Shown here piece after piece: positions 7,135 to 33,900 of a stretch of DNA of 64,000 nt. How positions within the stretch are numbered: position 1 is the stretch's first letter; each line of letters starts with the position of its first letter. The notes under the pieces are model-generated. The model searched no databases, was not told where the DNA came from, and saw nothing but the letters and a program-made list of their open reading frames with translations. Made by a program: the position numbers and the translations under genes. Source of the DNA: Fragilaria crotonensis (Eukaryota > Bacillariophyta > Fragilariophyceae > Fragilariales > Fragilariaceae); NCBI GenBank assembly GCA_022925895.1, contig JAKSYS010000019.1:176982-240981 (forward strand). Direction: 5' to 3'.

Positions 7135-10100
7135 ATGTTCTCATTCGCTACCATTGATAATAACAGTTTGCAAAGAACTTCTTTCCAGCCAATCAGCATA
7201 TTTCTGCCATCATCTATGACGCCCAGTAAACGACCACCATCAACAAATCCACTTGCAATTGCAGCAAGGAAAAGGCGTGCCAAACTTCGTCTCCTGTCGC
7301 AAGAAGGTGGTGACACTGTGGCTGCTACTCAGATGGCTGCCATTGCCACCCAGGACCGGGAGCAGACACGACGTACACGTGCACAACATCTGCAGCGGTC
7401 TCAAGATGGTGACCCCGTGGCTGCCACTCAGATGGCTGCCATTGCCACCCAGAACCGAGAACAGACACGACGAACACGTGCACAACGTCTGCAGCGGTCT
7501 CAAGATGGTGACCCTGTGGCTGCCGCTCAGATGGCTGCCATCGCCATCCAGAACCGAGAGCAGACACAACGTACACGTGCACTACGTCTGCAGCGGTCTC
7601 AAGATGGTGACCCTGTGGCTGCCACTCAGATGGCTGCCATCACCATCCAGAACCGAGAGCAGACACGACGTACACGTGCACAACGTCTGCAGCGGTCTCA
7701 AGATGGTGACCCTGTGGCTGCCACTCAGATGGCTGCCATCACCATCCAGAACCGAGAGCAGACACGACGAACACGTGCACAACGTCTGCAGCAGTCTCAA
7801 GAAGGTGACCCTGTGGCTGCCACTCAGATGGCTGCCATTGCCACCCAGAACCGGGAGCAGACACAACGTACACGTGCACAACGTCTGCAGCGGTCTCAAG
7901 AAGGTGACGCTGTGGCTGCCACTCAGATGGCTGCCATTGCCACCCAGCACCGGGAGCAAACAAGACATACACGCCAAAGTCACCCACGCACCCATGGCGC
8001 AGGTTATTCATCTGCTCCTATCCCAGTCCGTCATGTACTTGGCCCATGCACATTTGAGTGTCAGGGATGCTCTGCTCTGCATTTTCAGGAAGAAACATCT
8101 GAAAGAGGCTTCTTTTCATCTTGCTGTGCCAAGGGCAAGGTATCTCTCCCACCTCTTGATCCCACACCAAATGTGTTGATAGAGCTTTTTCAAGAACCTG
8201 AAACATTCATGCCATTCATACGTGCCTACAACTCTGCCTTGAGTTTTGCCTCAATAGGCGTTAATGTGGATGATGGTTTGATTGATCGTACCCATGGAAT
8301 TTATACTTTTCGCATTCATGGCTCAATGTACCACCGGTTGGGATCATTGCTTCCAGCACCTGGACAGCATCCTGCATTTGCACAGTTATATTTTTATGAT
8401 ACTGAACATGAGGCAGACAATCGTTTACGTCATATGAATAAGTTGGACAAGCATACTGTTGAATCATTGCAGCAAATGATTCAGAATGAAAACCGTCTGT
8501 ATGGATTATTCAAGCAGGCTCTTGATGAGCAAACCTTGGTCAATAGTTCTGATGGCAATGATGTTGAATTGCCTGGCCACAATCTTGCAATGCATATCTT
8601 AGAGCAACCTGAATTGGACCACAGACGTTACAATCGTCCAAGTTCCAGTGAGGTGGCTGTGATACTTCCTGACCAAGGTTCAGGGAACCGCAATATTCGA
8701 GTACTGCATCATGGTGGAGTGATTCAATCCATCTCAGAACTGCATCCTGACTATTCTCCATTGGCCTATGTCCTTCTGTTTCCAACAGGGAGCCCACAAG
8801 GCTGGCATCCTGAAATGATGCAGACTGGTCCAAATGCTATGACTCCACCGTCTACAAAATTAACTTGCCTCATGCATGCTGCATTTCGTCTTTTTGTACG
8901 CCCTGCTCCTATGTTCTCCAATCACCTTCACCTTGCAGGAAAGCTGTTCCACCAATACATTGTAGACTGCTATGCCCAAGTGGAACAAGGTCGCCTTAAT
9001 TTCATCCGTCATAATCAACCAAAATTGCGTGCTGAACTATATCAAGGCATTGCAGATGCTGTTGCTGGAGAGGATGTGACTAACACACGACAGCTTGGGC
9101 GTCGAATTATTCTGCCTTCATCTTTCATTGGAAGTCCAAGGAACATGCACCAACTTTGTCAAGATGCATTGGCAATTGTGCGCCGAATGGGCAAGCCAGA
9201 TCTTTTTATTACAATGACAACCAATCCACAGTGGCCAGAAGTCATGGAAAATCTTCTTCCTGGACAAACTGCAAATGACAGACCAGATTTGGTGGCACGA
9301 GTGTTTCATCTCAAGTTCACAGAGATGATGAGTGATCTCCAGAAACGACAAGTGCTTGGAAGGGTTGTGGCTGCTATCTACACCATTGAATTTCAAAAGC
9401 GAGGATTGCCACATGCGCACATTCTGGTTATTCTGGCAGAAAATGACAAACCCCGTACAGAATCTGACATTGATTGTATCATTTCAGCTGAGATCCCTGA
9501 TGCATTGATAGATCCTGAGCTGCATGCAACTGTGAAGCGATGTATGTTGCATGGGCCCTGTGGCACCAAAGTTTCCCCAAATCGATGGCAAAGTCTGAAA
9601 TGTTGTAATAGTCCTACACACCACCCAGGTGAATGCACTGATAAGTATCCCCAGCCATTTCAAGATGAGACAACCCTCAATGATGATGGATTCCCTCAAT
9701 ATCATCGACGTGATGATGGAAGGACTGTGACTGTTCGAGGAGCCGAGTTGGACAACCGCTGGGTAGTGCCATACAATCGCTATCTTACCAAGAAGTATGA
9801 CTGCCACATCAACGTTGAGGTTTGCAACTCAGTGCAGGCTGTCAAATACCTCTACAAATATGTATACAAAGGCCACGACCGTGCTGCAGTCCAGGTTGGT
9901 GAAGATACTGATGAGGATGAGATCAACCTCTATCTTCAGGGACGTTATGTCTCTGCATCTGAGGCATGCTGGCGCCTCTTCAGTTTTCGTCTTCACACTG
10001 AAAAGCCAAATGTGATGCGCCTAATGTACCATCTTCCCAACCAGCAATCAGTTGTGTTTCAGGAAGATGAAACAGTTGATCAAGTACTTGCAAGGGGAGC

Positions 10101-12255
10101 ACCCCATACACAGTTGCTTGCATGGTTTGAACTCAATCAAAATGATCAATATGCTTGCCAGTTCCTGTATCATGACATCCCTCAGCACTATAGATGGGAT
10201 AATGCTGGGAAATGCTGGGTGCGGCGATCACCTAATCACCAGCAAAAATTCCCCACTGTATCTCGCCTCTACAGTGCTTCTCCTTCTTCTGGTGAGCGGT
10301 ACTTTCTGCGGCGCATGTTGACTGTTGTGAAGGGTGCAACAAGTTTTCAAGCTCTACGAACAGTGGATGGAGAACTTTGTCCAACATTTCAAGATGCCTG
10401 CCGTACACTAGGTCTTCTGGATGATGATACTGAGTGGCATAGAGCCATGCAGGAAGCCACACAGATAGTGTCAGCATGCCGGCTCAGAAGACTCTTTGCA
10501 ATCATCCTTTTCAACTGTGATGTCTCTGATCCAAAGTCCCTCTATCAGTCTTACTGGGCTGCAATGTCAGAAGACTTTGCACACCATCACCCTGGCTTCA
10601 CTGAACAACAGCTGCAGGACTTCCTTGTGCGTGAACTTGATGCCCTCCTGGGGATGATGTACAGTCATTCTGTATTTGAATGGGTACCATTCCTTCGCAC
10701 ACTTCTGCTTGAGCATCCAACTGCTGTGGATAATTCTATCAATCATTGGTTGCAATTACAGCTTTCGTCATCCAGCAGTGATATTCAACAACAGCTGGAT
10801 CGCTTCCCTCTTCTGAATGCCCAACAACATGCTATTTTTGATGCTGTCCTGGCATCTGTCAATAGTGGTACTCAAATTCAGCAAAATGTGTTCTTTGTTG
10901 ATGGGCCTGCAGGCTCAGGTAAGACAGAGTTGTTCAGAATGATCCTTGCAAAGGTGCGCAGTGAAGGACATGTTGCTCTTGCAACAGCTATATCAGGTAT
11001 TGCTGCCACCAACTTTGCTCCTTTGGGCCGTACACTGCACTATATATCTGGACTTCCAATTCAATTGTACGAAACATCCATGTGCAACCTATCAAAAGAC
11101 AAGGCAGAAGTTCTGAAGGTAGCAAAGCTTTTGATCATTGATGAGATCACAATGCTCAAGGGTGTTGGTCTTGATGTTCTTTCACAGTCTCTTTGTGACT
11201 TGCTTGAATGTGCTGATGCTCCTTTTGGTGGTTTGGTTGTTATCATGGGTGGTGACTTTCGTCAAGTGCTTCCTGTACTAAGCCATGCTGGACGAGCTAC
11301 CATTGTGCATTCAACTGTCCTACAATCTAAAGTCTGGCAGACTTCATCTGTGAACATAATGCAACTCTCTGAGAATATGCGATTGCGTATAGACTTAGAA
11401 AACACAAGTGACCCACAGCTGCAAGAAGTACTTTCCCATTTTGCATCATTCCTCTTGAGGATTGGTGAGGACATGGAGCCTTCCCCAATAAATCTACCAT
11501 TGTATATTTCTCAGCCTCAAGAAGTGAACGAACTGGTTGAGCATGTGTTTGATGATTTTTCTTCTAATGATCCACTCTATTGGTCTGAACGTGCTATCCT
11601 ATGTCCCAAAAACAAAGATGTTCAACAAATAAATGATATGGTATCATCAAGATTACCACATGATGAGCATATATTTCTCAGTATTGACAACATCATGTCT
11701 GAAGAAATTGATGATCCTGCATATACCCTCTATCCTCCTGAATTCCTGAACTCTTTGGAGCCATCAGGCCTCCCACCACATCGCCTCAGTCTAAAAAAAG
11801 GCATGCTGGTCATGTTGCTCCGAAACCTATCAAGTACACTCAGCAATGGCACCCGACTCATGGTTCGCCGTATCTCACGGTCCATCCTTGAATGTTCTGT
11901 TCCTACCTCTGGAGAAATTGTGGACATACCACGAATTGCACTCCTTTCACCAGAAGATGAACTGCCTTTCATCTTTAAACGACGACAGTTTCCAGTCCGA
12001 CCAGCATATGCAATGACCATCAACAAGAGTCAAGGTCAAACATTGCGAAAAGTTGGAATCTTTGTGCCACAAGGCATATTTGCACATGGTCAACTTTATG
12101 TTGCTCTTTCACGAGTTCGTAACCCACATGATCTTTTTTGTATTTACTGGTGGTCATCCACTGCACAACATTGTTTACAAGGAGGTCCTCATTTCAACAT
12201 TGTGCCCTCGGCATCATCAGCAACAAAATTAAACAAGTTCACTGGCTATTTATAA
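7135..12255 (+). CDS. Helitron Rep/helicase (HUH endonuclease fused to Pif1-type helicase)
   Basis: This intact 1,706-aa frame starts at the ATG at 7135. Residues 55–282 are seven tandem repeats of about 33 aa. A Cys-rich patch follows at about 305–335 (CTFECQGC...CC), possibly a zinc finger. The Helitron N-terminal and Rep region carries the HUH motif in GLPHAHILVIL (about 757–766) and the Tyr-rich block YLYKYVYKGHD (about 905), the nicking tyrosines. The C-terminal SF1B helicase has Walker A GPAGSGKT (about 1257), Walker B LLIIDEITML (about 1333), TINKSQGQTL (about 1628) and YVALSRVRN (about 1658). The protein would nick, unwind and strand-transfer the element by rolling-circle transposition. 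An undamaged frame suggests recent activity. The TC and CTRR-hairpin termini could not be located with confidence. Confidence 0.95.
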   Translation: MFSFATIDNNSLQRTSFQPISIFLPSSMTPSKRPPSTNPLAIAARKRRAKLRLLSQEGGDTVAATQMAAIATQDREQTRRTRAQHLQRSQDGDPVAATQMAAIATQNREQTRRTRAQRLQRSQDGDPVAAAQMAAIAIQNREQTQRTRALRLQRSQDGDPVAATQMAAITIQNREQTRRTRAQRLQRSQDGDPVAATQMAAITIQNREQTRRTRAQRLQQSQEGDPVAATQMAAIATQNREQTQRTRAQRLQRSQEGDAVAATQMAAIATQHREQTRHTRQSHPRTHGAGYSSAPIPVRHVLGPCTFECQGCSALHFQEETSERGFFSSCCAKGKVSLPPLDPTPNVLIELFQEPETFMPFIRAYNSALSFASIGVNVDDGLIDRTHGIYTFRIHGSMYHRLGSLLPAPGQHPAFAQLYFYDTEHEADNRLRHMNKLDKHTVESLQQMIQNENRLYGLFKQALDEQTLVNSSDGNDVELPGHNLAMHILEQPELDHRRYNRPSSSEVAVILPDQGSGNRNIRVLHHGGVIQSISELHPDYSPLAYVLLFPTGSPQGWHPEMMQTGPNAMTPPSTKLTCLMHAAFRLFVRPAPMFSNHLHLAGKLFHQYIVDCYAQVEQGRLNFIRHNQPKLRAELYQGIADAVAGEDVTNTRQLGRRIILPSSFIGSPRNMHQLCQDALAIVRRMGKPDLFITMTTNPQWPEVMENLLPGQTANDRPDLVARVFHLKFTEMMSDLQKRQVLGRVVAAIYTIEFQKRGLPHAHILVILAENDKPRTESDIDCIISAEIPDALIDPELHATVKRCMLHGPCGTKVSPNRWQSLKCCNSPTHHPGECTDKYPQPFQDETTLNDDGFPQYHRRDDGRTVTVRGAELDNRWVVPYNRYLTKKYDCHINVEVCNSVQAVKYLYKYVYKGHDRAAVQVGEDTDEDEINLYLQGRYVSASEACWRLFSFRLHTEKPNVMRLMYHLPNQQSVVFQEDETVDQVLARGAPHTQLLAWFELNQNDQYACQFLYHDIPQHYRWDNAGKCWVRRSPNHQQKFPTVSRLYSASPSSGERYFLRRMLTVVKGATSFQALRTVDGELCPTFQDACRTLGLLDDDTEWHRAMQEATQIVSACRLRRLFAIILFNCDVSDPKSLYQSYWAAMSEDFAHHHPGFTEQQLQDFLVRELDALLGMMYSHSVFEWVPFLRTLLLEHPTAVDNSINHWLQLQLSSSSSDIQQQLDRFPLLNAQQHAIFDAVLASVNSGTQIQQNVFFVDGPAGSGKTELFRMILAKVRSEGHVALATAISGIAATNFAPLGRTLHYISGLPIQLYETSMCNLSKDKAEVLKVAKLLIIDEITMLKGVGLDVLSQSLCDLLECADAPFGGLVVIMGGDFRQVLPVLSHAGRATIVHSTVLQSKVWQTSSVNIMQLSENMRLRIDLENTSDPQLQEVLSHFASFLLRIGEDMEPSPINLPLYISQPQEVNELVEHVFDDFSSNDPLYWSERAILCPKNKDVQQINDMVSSRLPHDEHIFLSIDNIMSEEIDDPAYTLYPPEFLNSLEPSGLPPHRLSLKKGMLVMLLRNLSSTLSNGTRLMVRRISRSILECSVPTSGEIVDIPRIALLSPEDELPFIFKRRQFPVRPAYAMTINKSQGQTLRKVGIFVPQGIFAHGQLYVALSRVRNPHDLFCIYWWSSTAQHCLQGGPHFNIVPSASSATKLNKFTGYL
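7297..7980 (+). repeat. Seven tandem 99-bp coding repeats
   Basis: Units start at 7297 (102 bp), 7399, 7498, 7597, 7696, 7795 and 7894. Each encodes about 33 aa of the form SQ(D/E)GDPVAATQMAAIA followed by a basic Arg/Gln-rich half. Divergence between units is a few bases, so the array is young. The predicted product is an alternating short hydrophobic and basic helical repeat, plausibly DNA- or RNA-binding. Confidence 0.92.
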
Positions 12256-21059: not shown

Positions 21060-21061
21060 GA

Positions 21062-21099
21062 CACTAGAGACCATTCGGCCTCTGAACCACTGGCCCGAT
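21062..21099 (+). repeat. Left terminal inverted repeat of the two-gene transposon
   Basis: Thirty-eight bases from CACTAGAG to GGCCCGAT. It differs from the reverse complement of the right repeat at three positions (15, 29 and 30). Confidence 0.92.
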
Positions 21100-21489
21100 C
21101 CAGCCAGCCCCTCGTTATTACACCGTTATCACTCTTGCTCTTGTATAGTCCGAAACTTCATTCTTTATTGCAGACTCAATAACGGTTTTAGAGCTCATTC
21201 GAAGCTCGATTTCTCATCCAATTCCTCAAACGACGATGAGATCGTGCATCTTTACACTCGTTGGGTTGGCATGTACCACGAGATGCACGGACTCATCGTT
21301 GTTCGGCTTTTTGGTGAAGTCGATTTGAGGCCTGAAATTGACATTCCACGTGGATGAAAATTGTGACCTTACTAATTCCCACGTAGGCTTCACGTGAGCT
21401 CAAATTCTCGATTGCAAGAATTTGGGAAATCACAGTATCTTTTGAGATGAAAGCAGCAAAACACACTTCCATTGCAATCGACGTCAAGA

Positions 21490-24400
21490 ATGCAGCTGCA
21501 TGATCTGTACAAACGAGGTAGGAGCTACCCAATCACATGTCTTTCATTCGGAAAAAATAGGAAAGAAGACTATCCTGACCATTTTTTTTGCCATGGATGC
21601 GATTTGCTTGAGGATGCTGTCAACAACAACATAAAAAGAGCGAACCGTGAACAGAAAAAGTATGCTTGCACAGGTGGACATTCGGATCTTTCCCAACCCA
21701 CGACAATGAAAAGCAAGTATCGTGAAAAGAACACCAAGCAAATTGGAAAGGGAAGTGGGGATGATTCATGTCGCAATTCTTCTGCTTCTACCGGCTCGGA
21801 CAACAGGAAGATAAACACCCGCAATACTCAAGTCGGCAGGCAAGGAAACCAGGATGATTCATATTACATTTCTTCTACTTCTACCATTGCAAGTGATAAT
21901 GAGAATCAAATCAAATCACCAACTGCAAGTCCCACCAAGAAAAAGCCTCGACGACAAAATTCTGGGGAATTGACAGGTTGTAGTATCATAGATACTACTA
22001 CCGAAGGTGACGATGATGAAAGCGCTGATGGTGAATCAGAGCTTGCTGCGCCCCAAAGATTGTTTGTGTCATACCGGACTGACAATGATGAACTAGTTCA
22101 AGGTCATCGTAGTAGATTGTCTAGCAATTATGATCAAGGTAAGGAAAAGAGCAGCCCCGACAGCAGAAGTCAAGTACTGTCAAGCACCATGGCCACACAG
22201 TCGCAGTTGACAACATGCATCACCCCAACAAGTAATAACCATGACAATTTTGAATCAAAGAAAGACTTGTATACTGCTGTGCTTGAAGAGAAGAATGCCC
22301 GACTGCATGAGCGCGTTATTGAACTTGATCGCAGCCATGTCAATCTGGTTGTGCAAGTGGAGGCGCTCACGGCAGAGATAACTCGTCTGAAAGTGCATGG
22401 CGATGATGTACAAGAACAAGGCCATGTCATTGCTACTGAAGAAAGTCAAATGTGCGATGAGAATAACACTTCTGCAAAGTCAAGGAAGCATCGAATTCAA
22501 GTTGAGAATACTAAATTTTCTCGTGAGTTGTCCATTCTTATAAATGACTTTGTTACGAGCTCATGTTTTGCAGACAAACGAAGATTTCCAATCAGTCGCC
22601 TTGCAAAGATTGTTGTCGACAGCATTCTGTCGTTTCAATGGACTCATTCTGAAGTTGCAAAATTTTCTTCGCACTGCAATGCTGCAGATGCTTGGTCTAC
22701 ATTGTCAGAGCTCTTGAATGTAAGGAACATGAAACGATGTCGTGACAAGAGCAAAGCTGCAATTCTTGTCGATTGTATGTGGGATGATAACTTTCTTGAT
22801 GGTGAAGTTCAACGCTGCATGGTTGAAAAGGTTCGTTGTCATCTTCGAACTCACGTCTTCAGTCCATGGAAAATTTTGAAGGCCATGGATGTTTCCGGTT
22901 TCAAGTTAAGTCTGGCTGGGATCGAGGTCTTACGGCGTGTCGATATGACAAGTAAATATGGAAGGGGCATTCTTCCAAGCAAGTCGACAATACTACGAGC
23001 AGCCAGGATGCTAGAAGCAGAGGCCGAGAGGTTTTGTCCATTCTCCATGATCGGACAAACATTTCAGGGCGTTGACAAGAACAACCTCAATGACGGGAAT
23101 GACATTGGTGAGGGCTTCGAATTCGATGCCATCAAGGTTACCAAGACATTGTTTGAAGCATTTGGTCTGATGGAGGTAGCCAAGAGACGAGCAGTAGATT
23201 TGGCACTCACGTCGGATGGTGCTCAGCTGACGAATACTATCTCCCATGTAGCAGCGGGACTAAAGTTTAATGATATGGCAATCTGCGATCCATTTACGAA
23301 GCGTCCGCTTTTGCTTCACGAACCTGATTCGCTTGTTCAGAGTAGAAATCTCTGCTTTCCGCTTCGAATCGTGATTGCAAAAGACACGAAGAAGACTCTT
23401 GATGGATTTCGAGCTCTATACAACAAATTTAACAATGGTGAGGTTGCGCGGGCATTACTTTGTCAGTCGTTTAAGATGTCCTTTCCTGGAGATATGAAGC
23501 TCCAGTGGGGAGCCCTCGATGATGGTGGGGCAGCCAAGGTTAAGGATAAGTTTTGCTACATTTGCCCTTGCCGGTCTTCATCGCTCCATGTACCTCAAGA
23601 CAAGACAAGGTGCTCGATATGCAGAGAGAAGCCCATACAAGTTGATAACGAATGTTATCACTATCCATTTGTTGCAGATCCGGAAGTGAGGGGAGAGCTT
23701 GAGGATGAGCTTCGTGTCCTGACAGAATTAGTTCATGATATTCTTATTGATGCTGATGGTGGCGACAATAACGAACAAGTCAACGAAACAAATCCTCGTC
23801 AGAAGATGTATGTCCGTCGCTCAGGTGACATTAGAATTGAAGGCGACACATTTGATATCGACTTCAAAGCAAGTCAACAAAGCGATAAGGCAATCTGGGC
23901 TCGGCACATCACTGATGAACTCGCTAGCCGTTCAATGCCGGTTACAGGCACTCTCTATGATCGCCAGCAGCGACTCCGACAGCAGCTTGTAAATGAGCAG
24001 AGAACTCGAGATATAACACGAATGTTAGCAGACAGTGAACCAAAGGATCAAGCTATGTACCTGGTGATGCAGGCAGTTGTATGTATTTTGCATTTGGAAA
24101 ATCGAGTCGGGTTAAAATGTATCGAGAGCATTCTTCGTTCAGGACTCTCCCATGCTAGAAAAGGACTGCTGGACTGGACAGTAGCAAAGGGGGTGAGTCG
24201 AAGACAAGATGAGTATGTGCATCGCATCACAAGCACAATCGGCACTCAGATTCTTGGTACAGCAATGGCGCCTTCTCAATGGCGATTCCCACTTAGTGAG
24301 GATGGAAGTATGGGAACATTGTCAATGGACAATAACCGCACTCGGTCTGTTATGAACTCAATAGAGTTACTCGTTGAGGAGTCCTTTCCCAACTCAGATG

Positions 24401-24939
24401 CTAATAAACACCTGTTGCTTCGTTGCTTTCATCGATATCGGGCAGCAATGATTATCCTTCGGAAGAACACAGATGCCACCGAGGATGAGATACGAACCTT
24501 TCAGGACCATATAGATGCCTGGTTTCAAGACTGGGTTAAAGTATATGGAAAAGAAGGATGTACGAATTATACACATATGCTATCTTCTGCTCATGTAATG
24601 CGATACATGCAAGAGTGGAAGTGCCTACACCGCTTCTCGCAACAGGGATGGGAGGCTCTCAATGCATTGATAAAGGCATATTTTTTCCGTCGAACCAATC
24701 GAGGTGGCTTGGCAAGGAATACGGCGAGGAAGAGCAAGCTTTTAGGCATTGCTAGATGGCTCCAGCGACGAATGATGTGGTTCAGTGGTCATGGTGATGC
24801 CCTGTTTATAAAATGTGATGACGACAATGAAGATGAAACAAGTTCATTCGAGGACAACGATGAGGAAGGTAATGACAACGATGACACAAGTACTGACAGC
24901 GAATACGACAGCAATGACATTGACGATGACGATGACTGA
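21490..24939 (+). CDS. Large transposase-like protein of the two-gene element
   Basis: The protein is 1,149 aa from the ATG at 21490, without introns. In order it shows a Cys-containing N-terminus (FCHGCDLLEDA), a Ser/Asn-rich low-complexity region to about residue 250, and a coiled coil at about 256–307. A conserved-looking core follows: FPISRLAKIVVDSILSF, then LALTSDGAQLTNTISHVAAG with an Asp near 576. A zinc-knuckle-like cluster (CYICPC at about 689, CSIC at about 708) comes next. The C-terminal block reads YTHMLSSAHVMRYMQEW then FSQQGWEALNALIKAYFFRR (Glu near 1055), and an Asp/Glu tail starts at about 1112. The Asp and Glu could be part of a DDE site, which is an inference. Similar GWEA.N..(K).FF.RRT.GG blocks occur in unnamed repetitive proteins of several eukaryotes (from memory). 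An Academ-type relation is possible but unproven. Confidence 0.75.
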   Translation: MQLHDLYKRGRSYPITCLSFGKNRKEDYPDHFFCHGCDLLEDAVNNNIKRANREQKKYACTGGHSDLSQPTTMKSKYREKNTKQIGKGSGDDSCRNSSASTGSDNRKINTRNTQVGRQGNQDDSYYISSTSTIASDNENQIKSPTASPTKKKPRRQNSGELTGCSIIDTTTEGDDDESADGESELAAPQRLFVSYRTDNDELVQGHRSRLSSNYDQGKEKSSPDSRSQVLSSTMATQSQLTTCITPTSNNHDNFESKKDLYTAVLEEKNARLHERVIELDRSHVNLVVQVEALTAEITRLKVHGDDVQEQGHVIATEESQMCDENNTSAKSRKHRIQVENTKFSRELSILINDFVTSSCFADKRRFPISRLAKIVVDSILSFQWTHSEVAKFSSHCNAADAWSTLSELLNVRNMKRCRDKSKAAILVDCMWDDNFLDGEVQRCMVEKVRCHLRTHVFSPWKILKAMDVSGFKLSLAGIEVLRRVDMTSKYGRGILPSKSTILRAARMLEAEAERFCPFSMIGQTFQGVDKNNLNDGNDIGEGFEFDAIKVTKTLFEAFGLMEVAKRRAVDLALTSDGAQLTNTISHVAAGLKFNDMAICDPFTKRPLLLHEPDSLVQSRNLCFPLRIVIAKDTKKTLDGFRALYNKFNNGEVARALLCQSFKMSFPGDMKLQWGALDDGGAAKVKDKFCYICPCRSSSLHVPQDKTRCSICREKPIQVDNECYHYPFVADPEVRGELEDELRVLTELVHDILIDADGGDNNEQVNETNPRQKMYVRRSGDIRIEGDTFDIDFKASQQSDKAIWARHITDELASRSMPVTGTLYDRQQRLRQQLVNEQRTRDITRMLADSEPKDQAMYLVMQAVVCILHLENRVGLKCIESILRSGLSHARKGLLDWTVAKGVSRRQDEYVHRITSTIGTQILGTAMAPSQWRFPLSEDGSMGTLSMDNNRTRSVMNSIELLVEESFPNSDANKHLLLRCFHRYRAAMIILRKNTDATEDEIRTFQDHIDAWFQDWVKVYGKEGCTNYTHMLSSAHVMRYMQEWKCLHRFSQQGWEALNALIKAYFFRRTNRGGLARNTARKSKLLGIARWLQRRMMWFSGHGDALFIKCDDDNEDETSSFEDNDEEGNDNDDTSTDSEYDSNDIDDDDD

Positions 24940-24987
24940 CATCGCAGCTACTACAAAGAATCGAACTTGACATAGAAGAACATACTA

Positions 24988-26472
24988 CTATTCTAACATT
25001 TGTTGTATCTTGCGATAGACGGTCTCAACATCTCTGAACACTACAACTTCCAGAGCATTCACTTTTAAAGTCCTCCCGGTGTTGTCAAGTATTTTGTATA
25101 CCTTCGTAGCATGTATCTCGCCAACATTACTTCGGACTTCTTGTACTCGCATCACATACATACCGTCAATGAACTCCATTCCTGGTGTAATGATGCTGAT
25201 TCTTTCATTGTTGTTGGAAGCGATACGATGGCGAGCTCCGGCATCACTGACACCAACATCGACAAGTGAATGCAAGGATTCATTTGTAACGACAAGCTTT
25301 CGATATCTTAGAGAAATCTGAAGTGTACCCTCCGATGAGTCATAGGACAAGTCGATACCATCTTCTGTGCAGAAACGCTGAAATACCGAACATGTTGAAC
25401 AGTCACTCTTGTCGTCATCATCCGATTCTTTGCTTTCTGAAGGACACACAGCATTTACAACATCGTTTATACTCAACAGAAATGGGCCATCACTATACTT
25501 GGGTCGCTTCTTACGGACCCCGTATCCAGCCATCCTACCAAAGAGTCCCCGAAAAACATCCAACTTTTTAGCTGTGTCAAAACGCAAGACATCAAGGCAC
25601 CCGGTACGTCGGCGCGAATGATAGACAAGTCCCCAGGAAAGGAAGGCTTGAGGTTGGCTGTACTTTACTGTAGAGATGCTTTCTACACCTCCGGCTGCCA
25701 TTGCATTCTTGATAAAGTACCAAGTGCAACTTGGTAGTTGCAGCTTCGTATTCTTCACTGTGAAATCACCCTGTGACTGGGCAACACGGCAGAGCACTCG
25801 TTGCATTTCTTGTCTTATGTGCCGGATGGCATTGAATGTAAGTTCGCAATAATCCACTGACCAAAGCTTGTGAAAACTCTCAATTTGCCCTGGAAAAGGT
25901 GGGCATGTGTGTCGAGGGATCACAGAAACAATGCCCTCTCCTGAGATGCGATACTTTGTAACATAAAAATTTGACATTCCTCTGCAATCGTCAAAGGCAT
26001 CATCATCCTCGTATGCAACAAAAGCAAGGCCAGCAATGTCATAGGATGGTATCCAGTCAAATTCATTGACTTGGACAATTCTGTGCCATCCATTAAACCG
26101 ATCATCGCCCTGAGGAAAATCGCAACCAGAAAACAATGTGCGATCGTGAAAGATGTTCACCTTCACAAATTGCACTGGAATTTCATTTTCAAATCTATCT
26201 GGTGATGCAAGCAGATGGATGATTTGATGCTTTTCATGTTCAGGAACCAAATCGATTGATGTTGCAACTTCAACCACACGACCAACTCTCGGTGATTGCT
26301 CATCCACTCTACTCCGAGTACTGTATCTCACAAACGATCCAGCTGTCACAGAGATCTTCAGGGAAGGAATGTACACGGTGTTCTTAAAGGAAGTGGGATT
26401 CAGTAATTCCCAACTTGTTGAGGATGACTTGGTGGGCTGCTGCATCTGTGTCATATCATCATTGTCAGTCAT
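24988..26472 (-). CDS. Partner protein of the two-gene transposon, BAH-like region
   Basis: The protein is 494 aa from the ATG at 26472. The frame stays open upstream to about 26550, where a TTAG resembling an intron acceptor occurs, so an upstream exon is possible. The N-terminal half has a beta-rich region of VGRVVEVATSID, VQFVKVNIF and WHRIVQVNEFDWIPSYDI, then GLAFVAYEDDDAF and GMSNFYVTKYRI. This recalls BAH-type chromatin-binding folds, a weak resemblance. The C-terminal half has an acidic linker (SKESDDDDKSDCS) and no domain I recognise. It lies convergent to the transposase with 48 bp between stop codons, inside the same inverted repeats. A role in target choice, chromatin contact or transposase regulation is inferred from position only. 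Confidence 0.7.
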   Translation of the reverse strand: MTDNDDMTQMQQPTKSSSTSWELLNPTSFKNTVYIPSLKISVTAGSFVRYSTRSRVDEQSPRVGRVVEVATSIDLVPEHEKHQIIHLLASPDRFENEIPVQFVKVNIFHDRTLFSGCDFPQGDDRFNGWHRIVQVNEFDWIPSYDIAGLAFVAYEDDDAFDDCRGMSNFYVTKYRISGEGIVSVIPRHTCPPFPGQIESFHKLWSVDYCELTFNAIRHIRQEMQRVLCRVAQSQGDFTVKNTKLQLPSCTWYFIKNAMAAGGVESISTVKYSQPQAFLSWGLVYHSRRRTGCLDVLRFDTAKKLDVFRGLFGRMAGYGVRKKRPKYSDGPFLLSINDVVNAVCPSESKESDDDDKSDCSTCSVFQRFCTEDGIDLSYDSSEGTLQISLRYRKLVVTNESLHSLVDVGVSDAGARHRIASNNNERISIITPGMEFIDGMYVMRVQEVRSNVGEIHATKVYKILDNTGRTLKVNALEVVVFRDVETVYRKIQQMLE

Positions 26473-26658
26473 CACATGCAGTGGCTGTAGTACTCGAGCA
26501 GAGCGACGAGGATACTCATACTTGAGTGCCAAAAATGCGCGAAGAGGAAGCTAAGCAACTTACTTAAACAATTTTTTTAAATGTTATGCCTCGAAGATGA
26601 AGTGTGCATTTCATCGAAGACGTTAAAATCAGAGTCAAATTGTGGCTCATAACCAAAA

Positions 26659-26696
26659 ATCGGGCCGCTGGTTCAGAGGCCAAATGGTCTCTAGTG
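26659..26696 (-). repeat. Right terminal inverted repeat of the two-gene transposon
   Basis: Thirty-eight bases, ATCGGGCC to CTCTAGTG, the reverse complement of the left repeat apart from three changes. It is followed by ACGTACGT. Confidence 0.92.
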
Positions 26697-26918
26697 ACGT
26701 ACGTCACTTCACAAAAATCAATTGGTTTTTAAAAACGCCATGGGGGCGGACGGCGGACCGTGAAAACAAAATCGAAATATTCTTCGTTTCTGTTTTTTTT
26801 GTTGTTGACGTGTGAGCTTTAAGTATTGCCTTATCAGCATTGAAGGCGCCCCCGGGACCAAGCTTCGCATCCAATAATTTGTGGCAATAACTCTTAGAGC
26901 AGAACAAAAGGTGACATC
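26697..26918. other. Spacer between transposon and HMG-box tail copies
   Basis: AT-rich, with a run of T near 26791–26800. It contains a stretch (GAAAACAAAATCG...TTCTTCGTTTCTG) that resembles one near 37000–37040. No gene was seen. Confidence 0.35.
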
Positions 26919-30769: not shown

Positions 30770-33700
30770 GCGAGGCGCAAATCAATGTTGATTGTCACAA
30801 TCCCCAATTTAATTCATATTCTGTGTTCAGACTTGGAGTTGCAGAAAATAGTCCTATCAAATGCTTCATTGGTGATATTGATGGCACCCTTGGATTGTAT
30901 GTACTAAGCTTACTCATAGACTAGTACACAAATCAATGTGCCTCAATCCCAAAGAACAGCATGTCCTGGGTGCCAAATTCCTTTGTAAATGCAAAATGTG
31001 AGGGCTGAAATGGAGATGCAAAAAATGCAACTGTCAGGAATTATGAAGATTTTTTGGTCGTAGTACTGATGGCAGCCATTGATTGCAATGGATAGTATGC
31101 AAACTGATTGACTAGTGGGCAATTCAATGAGCAATTTGCAACTATAGCACAATTGATGCTTTCCACTTAAATGGATGATATTCAGTAGGCAGACAGTGAG
31201 ATAAAACAAAATTGTACTGGTGTGGGTTGCTTGGTGTGCATTGATTGCATTGCTTGATGGCATCCTTGGAAGCGCTTCACTTTCCAAGCTCATTGACTTC
31301 TTGAACAAGATTCAATGCATGATCCCAGAATGCAATAAAAATACTATGCAGAAATTCTCATTTTGGAAATGAAAAACTAGCTGTCATCATGATGGTTTCT
31401 TAAGTGTGTATTGGGTGTATTGACAGCACCCTTTGATTGTCAGTACTATCCATGCCCATCAACACTTGTTGAATTCAATGCACAAATCAACACTTTGGGT
31501 GTGGGATCCTAGTTAAAGAGGTGCAAAATCTGTGGTCAACCTGGGAATTGGAAAGTTTTGGTCAATATTTGTTGAGTTTTTATTATGTGGTATTGATGAC
31601 ACCCATTGATGGTAACTGACTTCTGGTAAACTCAGTGCACAAGCAAATCCAGCACACTTGTTTACTTGGTGTAGGATCCGTGCTCAAATGCAAAAACTGC
31701 GGTCAGCTATGGGCATGGAGAAATTATTCTGTCAGTGTTTGTTGTATTTTCTTCGGTTGTTTTGTTGACCCTTCTTGATTCTAACAACTTTCAATACAAA
31801 CTGACTGTTGCGCAAACAAGTATGCAAAACCCCGGAGTACACAACTTTTGCAGATTGGGGGTTCCCACTTCAATTCATATTCTGTGGTCAGACTTGGAGA
31901 TGCGGAAGATGGTCCTGTCAAAGTCTCTTTCAGTTGCATTGGTGATAATCATGACACCTTGGATTTTTGTAGTGAGCTTACTTATTGGTTGAATCACAAG
32001 GCGATGCACAGCCAAGCCCCAAATATACAGGGTGCAGAGTCCCCATTGTAATGAAAAATCTGAGGGCTGCATTGGAGATGCAGAACAAATCTTCTGTCAA
32101 GGAATGTTGAGGGTGTATCAGAAATGTTTTTGACACCTAGGATTTTGTAGTGAGCTTACTTATTGGTTGAAAGGCAAGTCAGTGCACAAGCCCCAAACAT
32201 ACAGGGTGCAGGGTCCCCATTGTAATGCAAAATCTGAGGGCTGCATTGGAGATGCAGAACAAATCTTCTGTCAAGGATTGTTAAGTGTGTATCAGAAATG
32301 TTTTTGACACCCTAGGTTTTTTTGTAGTGAGCTTACTGATTGGTTGAAAGACAAGTTAGTGCACAAGCCCCAAATATACAGGGTGCGGGGACCCCTTTGT
32401 AATGCAAAATCTGAGGGCTGAATGAAAGATGCAGAAAAAATGTTCTGCCAGAGTTTGTCAAGTTTGCATTGATGATACCGACGGCATCCTTTGAGTGGGT
32501 ATATATACCCATTGACTAGTGTGCAATTCAGTGGGTAATTTGCCACAATTGCCGATACAGGGTTTTTTGATTAATGAATATTCTGCAGTCAGACATTAAT
32601 ATTCAGAATTGTACTGTTGTATTTTGTTGAGTGTGTATGGATTGTATTGATGGCATCCTGAGATCCTTTCAACCTTTTTTGCTCATTGACTTCTTGAAGA
32701 TTCAATTATGATGCCAAAATGCGAACAAAAAAATACACAAAAATGATCAATACTCAATGGATTTTGGATTTTAAAAAATCAAAAACTGGCATTTACTCCA
32801 TCATCAAATGCCTGAGACTCATTGGCTGAAGCTCCCGCAACAATATTTGCTTTGGGAGTTAGTGTTGGTGTTAGCGACATAAGTTAATGTGAAATTTAGG
32901 ATGGGATCACATGTTATCTACTAGTATTGCAATCACACAAATCAGAAGTACTTTATGTTCTGAGCTTGTCAGTTGCACTATAACAACCCTAGCATTGACT
33001 TTCGTTGCTGGAGCTTCTGTAAATGAGTCTCAGGCATTTGATGATGGAGTAAATGCCAGTTTTTGATTTTAAAATCCAAAATCCAATGAGTATTGATCAT
33101 TTTTGTGTATTTTTTTGTTCGCATTTTGGCATCATAATTGAATCTTCAAGAAGTCAATGAGCAAAAAGGTTGAAAGGATCTCAGGATGCCATCAATACAA
33201 TCCATACACACTCAACAAAATACAACAGTACAATTCTGCGGAATATTAATGTCTGACTGCAGAATATTCATTAATCAAAACCCTGTATCGGCAATTGTGG
33301 CAAATTACCCACTGAATTGCACACTAGTCAATGGGTATATATACCCACTCCAATCAAAGGATGCCGTCGGTATCATCAATGCAAACTTGACAAACTCTGG
33401 CAGAACATTTTTTCTGCATCTTTCATTCAGCCCTCAGATTTTGCATTACAAAGGGGTCCCCGCACCCTGTATATTTGGGGCTTGTGCACTAACTTGTCTT
33501 TCAACCAATCAGTAAGCTCACTACAAAAAAACCTAGGGTGTCAAAAACATTTCTGATACACACTTAACAATCCTTGACAGAAGATTTGTTCTGCATCTCC
33601 AATGCAGCCCTCAGATTTTGCATTACAATGGGGACCCTGCACCCTGTATGTTTGGGGCTTGTGCACTGACTTGCCTTTCAACCAACAAGTAAGCTCACTA

Positions 33701-33900
33701 CAAAAATCCTAGGATGTCAAAAACATTTCTGATACACCCTCAACATTCTTTGACAGAAGGTTTGTTCTGCATCTCCAATGCAGCCCTCAGATTTTTCATT
33801 ACAATGGGGACCCTGCACCCTGCATATTTGGGGCTTTTGCATTGACTATCATACTAGCTAGTCAGCATTGAATAAAGGGATACAAAGATCCATGGGTAGA
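30770..33900. repeat. Degenerate satellite, period about 175 bp
   Basis: A recurring unit contains CAAGCCCCAAATATACAGGG, GGTCCCCATTGTAATG, a CTGAGGGCTG(C/A)AT block, TTCTGTCAAGGA and GTAGTGAGCTTACT. In 31960–32350 the GTAGTGAGC block recurs about every 175–180 bp. More diverged units extend back to about 30790 (AATTCATATTCTGTG..CAGACTTGG). From about 33010 the units are inverted. No coding content was seen. Confidence 0.75.
32005..33845. repeat. Long inverted repeat (palindrome), arms about 830 bp
   Basis: The left arm at about 32005–32830 is mirrored by the right arm at about 33010–33845 around an axis near 32922. For example AAATGCCTGAGACTCATT near 32806–32823 faces AATGAGTCTCAGGCATTT near 33022–33039. 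Identity is high over most of the arms and fades at the centre, where about 180 bp separate them. Each arm carries satellite units at its outer part and non-satellite sequence nearer the centre. Confidence 0.88.

Follow-up and report, generated by a model that had tools for sequence, protein, structure and literature searches.

What kind of mobile element lies at this locus in Fragilaria crotonensis, and how does it join its target DNA? The window, meaning the whole stretch of 64,000 nucleotides that was analysed, contains a complete transposon at positions 21062-26696 (5,635 bp) with ends reading CACTAG...CTAGTG, and the same termini bound copies elsewhere in the genome. Its terminal inverted repeats (TIRs) are 38 bp long (left, 21062-21099 on the plus strand; right, 26659-26696 on the minus strand) and identical at 35/38 positions. 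Between them lie two undamaged convergent open reading frames with a gap of 48 bp between their stops: ORF1 on the plus strand (21490-24939; 1,149 aa), encoding a putative DDE transposase, and ORF2 on the minus strand (24988-26472; 494 aa), encoding a putative accessory protein. Rfam had zero matches inside the element. A sequence-only reading of this DNA had proposed a complete two-gene transposon with intact genes, which stands, and had placed it at 21060-26698, which is two bases out at each end because a GAC target duplication was assumed. We read the element as an intact autonomous cut-and-paste transposon of a divergent CACTA-like lineage within the CMCT clade, with a joint staggered by 1 nt and an accessory protein, and put the probability of this reading at about 0.8.

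Both genes have relatives throughout the 62-Mb genome, where tblastn returned 48 matches for ORF1 and 47 for ORF2. The TIR word CACTAGAGACCATT, allowing at most 1 mismatch, had 121 genomic matches versus 12 for its reversed control. When the ORF1 and ORF2 match lists were compared side by side, the two genes adjoined one another in at least 26 loci, and in every one of these they were convergent. Further copies with both genes, and termini conserved between copies, on which the sequence-only reading had staked its proposal, are thus both found. The relatives split into two clades, both of which are represented among these loci. In clade A, which includes the window copy, TIRs start with CACTAGAGACC, as in the window, or with CACTACAGACC, and ORF1 is 51-78% identical to the window ORF1 over the aligned parts. 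Clade B TIRs start with CAATAGCGACC (94 matches versus 3 in the control), so that the ends read CAATA and not CACTA, and clade B proteins are about 31-38% (ORF1) and about 25-31% (ORF2) identical to those of the window. Short non-autonomous elements are found in both clades. Those of clade A measure about 330-1,700 bp and those of clade B about 105-230 bp, and clade B also contains some longer elements of about 1.9 kb. At L075 (C613:12520-15950), a clade A non-autonomous copy has inserted into a copy of its own type, and one more similar copy (L076) lies nearby.

Taken as a whole, the family is young and recently mobile. Non-autonomous copies of clade A that occupy different sites reach up to 99.8% identity, and the clade B autonomous copies C38, C274, C29 and C35 are about 99.8% identical; near-identical copies at separate sites indicate that the family moved recently. 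The earlier suggestion of young termini and a recently working system therefore fits the family but not the window copy, for which the closest ORF1 shares 75% protein identity at a dS of 0.84; this copy itself may be active. ORF1 is under purifying selection (dN/dS 0.18 versus its nearest relative), as is ORF2 (dN/dS 0.12-0.22 within the clade), which makes it probable that the family has depended on both genes through most of its history. The second protein had been described as found only in this context, and at least 26 copies do adjoin ORF1, but in at least 2 elements bounded by TIRs ORF2 is present and no ORF1 could be detected. Both are of the clade B type and about 2.9 kb long: one (C76:102397-105297, within L133 1-2936, C76:102380-105315) has an intact ORF2 of 476 aa, and the other (C38:80020-82916) has an ORF2-like gene.

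Insertion of this family duplicates a single target base. Among 65 insertions for which both ends were available, the base before the left end is the same as the base after the right end in 53, compared with 17.8 +/- 3.5 expected by shuffling and a maximum of 32 in 20,000 shuffles. Other registers (-3 to +3) and lengths (1 to 5 bp) were at or near chance, and over the whole set all four identities of the duplicated base occur. The GAC duplication proposed earlier corresponds to ends shifted inward by one base with 3 bp duplicated, a register that fits only 1/65 insertions, that of the window itself, and we reject it as a coincidence. In the window the putative duplicated base is an A, with its left copy at 21061 and its right copy at 26697; this assignment follows the family-wide scan and is weak evidence for the window copy alone. 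Of the 12/65 insertions that lack a 1-bp match, some have altered terminal bases, and two for which empty sites exist (L072 and the inner insertion of L075) show 0 bp.

Paralogous empty sites, found by searching the same genome with joined flanks, give the same duplication length for six insertions, in which the shared base occurs once in the empty site and twice in the filled one, that is, exactly 1 bp. Four of these insertions belong to clade A (L079, L033, L040 and L044, with two paralogs each except L033) and two to clade B (L170 and L159). We infer from this a stagger of 1 nt in the target joint. In the open-access literature searched, we found no report of 1-bp target duplications. Two short elements, L127 (C183:51384-51606) and L129 (C387:8219-8430), read GAATAG...CTATTC instead of CAATAG...CTATTG at their two ends and have no 1-bp duplication, which may hint at a role of the terminal C in the joint.

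ORF1 consists of an N-terminal Cys/His (CxxC) knuckle, a coiled coil, a putative catalytic core and an acidic tail, and the knuckle, plausible DDE core and acidic tail noticed in the sequence-only reading are confirmed. Alignment across the two clades leaves 145 invariant core residues. These include, all on the plus strand and in all 11 sequences of the two clades, candidates for the first catalytic Asp (D576, in SDGAQL; 23215-23217), the second Asp (D668; 23491-23493) and the catalytic Glu (E1055, in SQQGWEALN; 24652-24654). Also invariant are the two halves of a putative zinc site, C689-x2-C692 (23554-23565) and H1029-x5-H1035 (24574-24594). D595, which is also invariant, could replace D576 in the motif pattern as the first Asp. 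When residue identities were shuffled among the 145 invariant positions, the D/D/CxxC/H-H/E arrangement arose in 0/100,000 shuffles, with the caveat that H(5)H was admitted to the pattern only after the sequence was seen. From this conserved pattern we would expect ORF1 to use DDE chemistry, and C689/C692 together with H1029/H1035 may bind zinc.

The same family of proteins gives no sensible match in Pfam, NCBIfam or PDB. Transposase_21 and other CACTA profiles were not matched by hmmscan with 11 relatives at E values up to 10, and a search of genomes with the PF02992 profile returned zero matches, as it also did in control genomes, and so carries no information. PDB profiles likewise gave no match that would indicate homology to the RAG1, Transib or CACTA transposases. 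Searches for viral and prokaryotic relatives found none, and the motif patterns run on viral contigs for CACTA proteins matched unrelated genes only. AlphaFold models built from single sequences had pLDDT values of 34.5 for the ORF1 core and 31.4 for ORF2, too low to be of use. Two pairs of ORF1 stretches, CILHLENR with HIEKNV and GWEALNALIK with PFERYLKVLK, have what we take to be a CACTA-like appearance, and we treat them as leads only.

ORF2 contains no domain recognised in Pfam, NCBIfam or PDB. An impression that its N-terminus resembles a BAH or Tudor domain came without any Pfam match and was set aside as a weak lead. By analogy with the second protein of CACTA elements, ORF2 is most likely a DNA-binding accessory, and it is probably a required, or at least strongly selected, partner of the putative transposase.

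Several internally deleted, non-autonomous clade A elements retain both end regions of the element. By blastn and alignment against L037, L054, L072, L073, L075, L076 and others, the left region kept corresponds to 21062-21423 (about 362 bp) and the right one to 26560-26696 (about 137 bp). The left region contains a subterminal inverted repeat (21229-21303) with arms at 21229-21251 and 21281-21303. Across 13 autonomous and non-autonomous copies, 81% of cells pair between these arms, compared with 24-40% when the arms are slid. Eight pairs have changes on both sides, and there are 27 double-change cells versus 13.2 after shuffling, a value reached in 0/500 shuffles. Arm variants that change together include AACGACG/CGTCGTT, AACTTCG/CGAAGTT and AAGTTCG/CGAACTT. 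This covarying repeat is a candidate for a palindromic site bound by ORF1 or ORF2, or for a hairpin in the ORF1 leader. A clade B element on C38 has, at a comparable position about 100 bp from its left end, an inverted repeat of 48 nt that is unrelated to this one (L080 2094-2196).

Comparison with described superfamilies places the element near CACTA/EnSpm. Elements of the CACTA type end in CACTA/TAGTG and carry two ORFs (PMC4158355), and the family described here resembles them in the CACTA...TAGTG ends of clade A, in two ORFs that include a putative DDE transposase, and in many internally deleted copies that retain the ends (PMC4158355). It differs from them in its 1-bp rather than 3-bp duplication, its convergent genes, its single-exon ORFs, the lack of a match to Transposase_21 and the CAATA ends of clade B. 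The broader CMCT clade of Kojima, which comprises EnSpm, Mirage, Chapaev, Transib/RAG1, Plavaka, ESTA and Lanisha, is characterized by the residues D, D, C(2)C, H(3-4)H and E, by CA...TG termini and by duplications of 2-5 bp (PMC12730594). ORF1 shares the order D, D, C(2)C between the second D and the E, paired His, and E, and both clades have CA...TG ends, but its histidines (H1029/H1035) are spaced as H(5)H and not H(3-4)H, and its 1-bp duplication compares with 2-5 bp. The corresponding residues of mouse RAG1 are D600, D708, C727/C730, H937/H942 and E962 (PMC4914335). RAG1 and ORF1 have the same spacing of 20 between the second His and the Glu, and the second Asp and first Cys lie 19 apart in RAG1 versus 21 in ORF1, but there is no sequence homology to RAG1/Transib detectable in PDB.

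Other groups resemble the element in fewer respects. Plavaka A/B and ESTA are likewise divergent CMCT lineages with short duplications, of 2 or 2-3 bp (PMC12730594). Plavaka differs in its termini, TGT..ACA or CATCA..TGATG versus CACTAG/CAATAG plus 1 bp here, ESTA differs in its TA duplication versus 1 bp here, and the proteins described here have no Pfam match. The brown alga Ectocarpus has Harbinger elements in which two genes likewise lie tail to tail (PMC12477816), but PIF/Harbinger elements make 3-bp (or 0/2-bp) duplications and their Nuwa families have a Myb/SANT partner (PMC12730594). Neither of the two proteins here matched a Harbinger-type transposase or a Myb/SANT domain. The KDZ (Kyakuja-Dileera-Zisupton) group differs in its 7-8 bp duplication and its KDZ profile, against 1 bp and no Pfam match here. 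Academ elements encode XPG nuclease and helicase domains, and no Pfam match to these domains was found.

The earlier statement that no superfamily could be named for the large protein survives in part: no Pfam, NCBIfam or PDB match was found, but the CACTA...TAGTG ends, the two ORFs and the D/D/CxxC/HxH/E order point to the CMCT clade. A clear match to CACTA, which the sequence-only reading had named as evidence against itself, was found at the level of motifs and not at that of sequence. The element appears to work like CACTA, and we do not claim that it is CACTA proper, an assignment that fails because there is no 3-bp duplication and no profile match. Motifs and termini speak for a place in the wider CMCT clade, the duplication length falls outside the range of that clade, and the assignment is one made at the motif level only.

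Several other explanations have to be weighed against this reading, and the target site decides between some of them. That the two ORFs are host genes or unrelated frames between chance inverted repeats would agree with the failure of either protein to match databases, but the same genes in the same order and orientation, with the same termini, recur in dozens of dispersed copies, which refutes it and leaves its probability negligible. A second possibility, that there is no target duplication and the matching base is part of the element or a product of excision or repair, we consider very unlikely. The empty-site comparisons for L072 and for the inner insertion of L075 do fit 0 bp. In addition, the nearest paralog of the window site (L112, C556:32740-32910) reads cgaTacg versus cga[element]acg in the window. 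This additional T, which sits exactly at the junction, may be an excision footprint, a mutation or a base that was there before, and the window copy by itself therefore does not prove its own duplication. Against this, any of the four bases can be the matching one across the family, and six insertions have it once when empty and twice when filled.

An ordinary CACTA/EnSpm element, with 3-bp duplications that have decayed or been misread, would account for the CACTA...TAGTG ends with two ORFs (PMC4158355) and for the CMCT motif order. A 3-bp identity at the termini occurs in only 1/65 insertions, though, and the six paralogous empty sites show exactly 1 bp, so that the duplication this explanation calls for is refuted. 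Some copies are moreover about 99% identical, which makes them too young for duplications to have decayed, and Transposase_21 is not matched; we regard this explanation as improbable. A separate DDE superfamily that converged on CACTA-like ends and a Cys2His2 insertion is somewhat less improbable but still doubtful. It would explain the lack of sequence-level homology to known families, the use of H(5)H instead of H(3-4)H, and a duplication of 1 bp outside the 2-5 bp of the CMCT clade (PMC12730594), but the ordered D, D, CxxC, H-H and E, with distances like those of RAG1 and in combination with CACTA termini, are much to ask of convergence. On the rank of the lineage our opinion is evenly divided: it may be an undescribed DDE lineage at the superfamily level, akin to CACTA and RAG1 in active-site layout only, with a 1-nt stagger and an obligate partner belonging to a new fold family. 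Its novelty is best read as residing in the duplication length, the lack of a match in the libraries searched (Pfam, NCBIfam and PDB) and the partner protein.

For a divergent CACTA-like transposon of this kind, we envisage that the putative transposase would bind the CACTAG TIRs and excise the element, and that the 3' ends would be joined to target phosphates one nucleotide apart. Repair of this 1-nt-staggered joint would leave a single duplicated base. ORF2 would probably bind DNA near the ends, with the palindrome in the left subterminal region as a possible site, and by analogy with CACTA may assist excision or assembly. Movement in trans would account for the non-autonomous copies, in which the left end region (about 362 bp) and the right one (137 bp) are kept.

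The length of a target duplication mirrors how far apart the two active sites of the transposase complex lie on target DNA. If the reading is correct, a 1-bp duplication would put this CACTA/RAG1-like enzyme at an extreme of that geometry, in a clade for which 2 to 5 bp are published (PMC12730594), and would be relevant to the way in which strand-transfer spacing varies within the RAG/CACTA branch. A young family with both partners and many non-autonomous substrates makes this directly testable. The family also adds two protein families that are absent from the domain libraries searched, and automatic annotation would for that reason miss them.

Two other features of the window were observed outside the element. 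An open frame at 7135-12255 encodes a Helitron protein of 1,706 aa (Helitron_like_N plus PIF1 helicase), the N-terminal part of which contains a 99-bp in-frame tandem repeat (7185-8075). An imperfect palindrome of about 1.9 kb occupies 31957-33847, with nested arms of 76-356 nt (for example, 32143-32498 and 33350-33705) at 99-100% complementarity and tandem units of about 176 bp in each arm.
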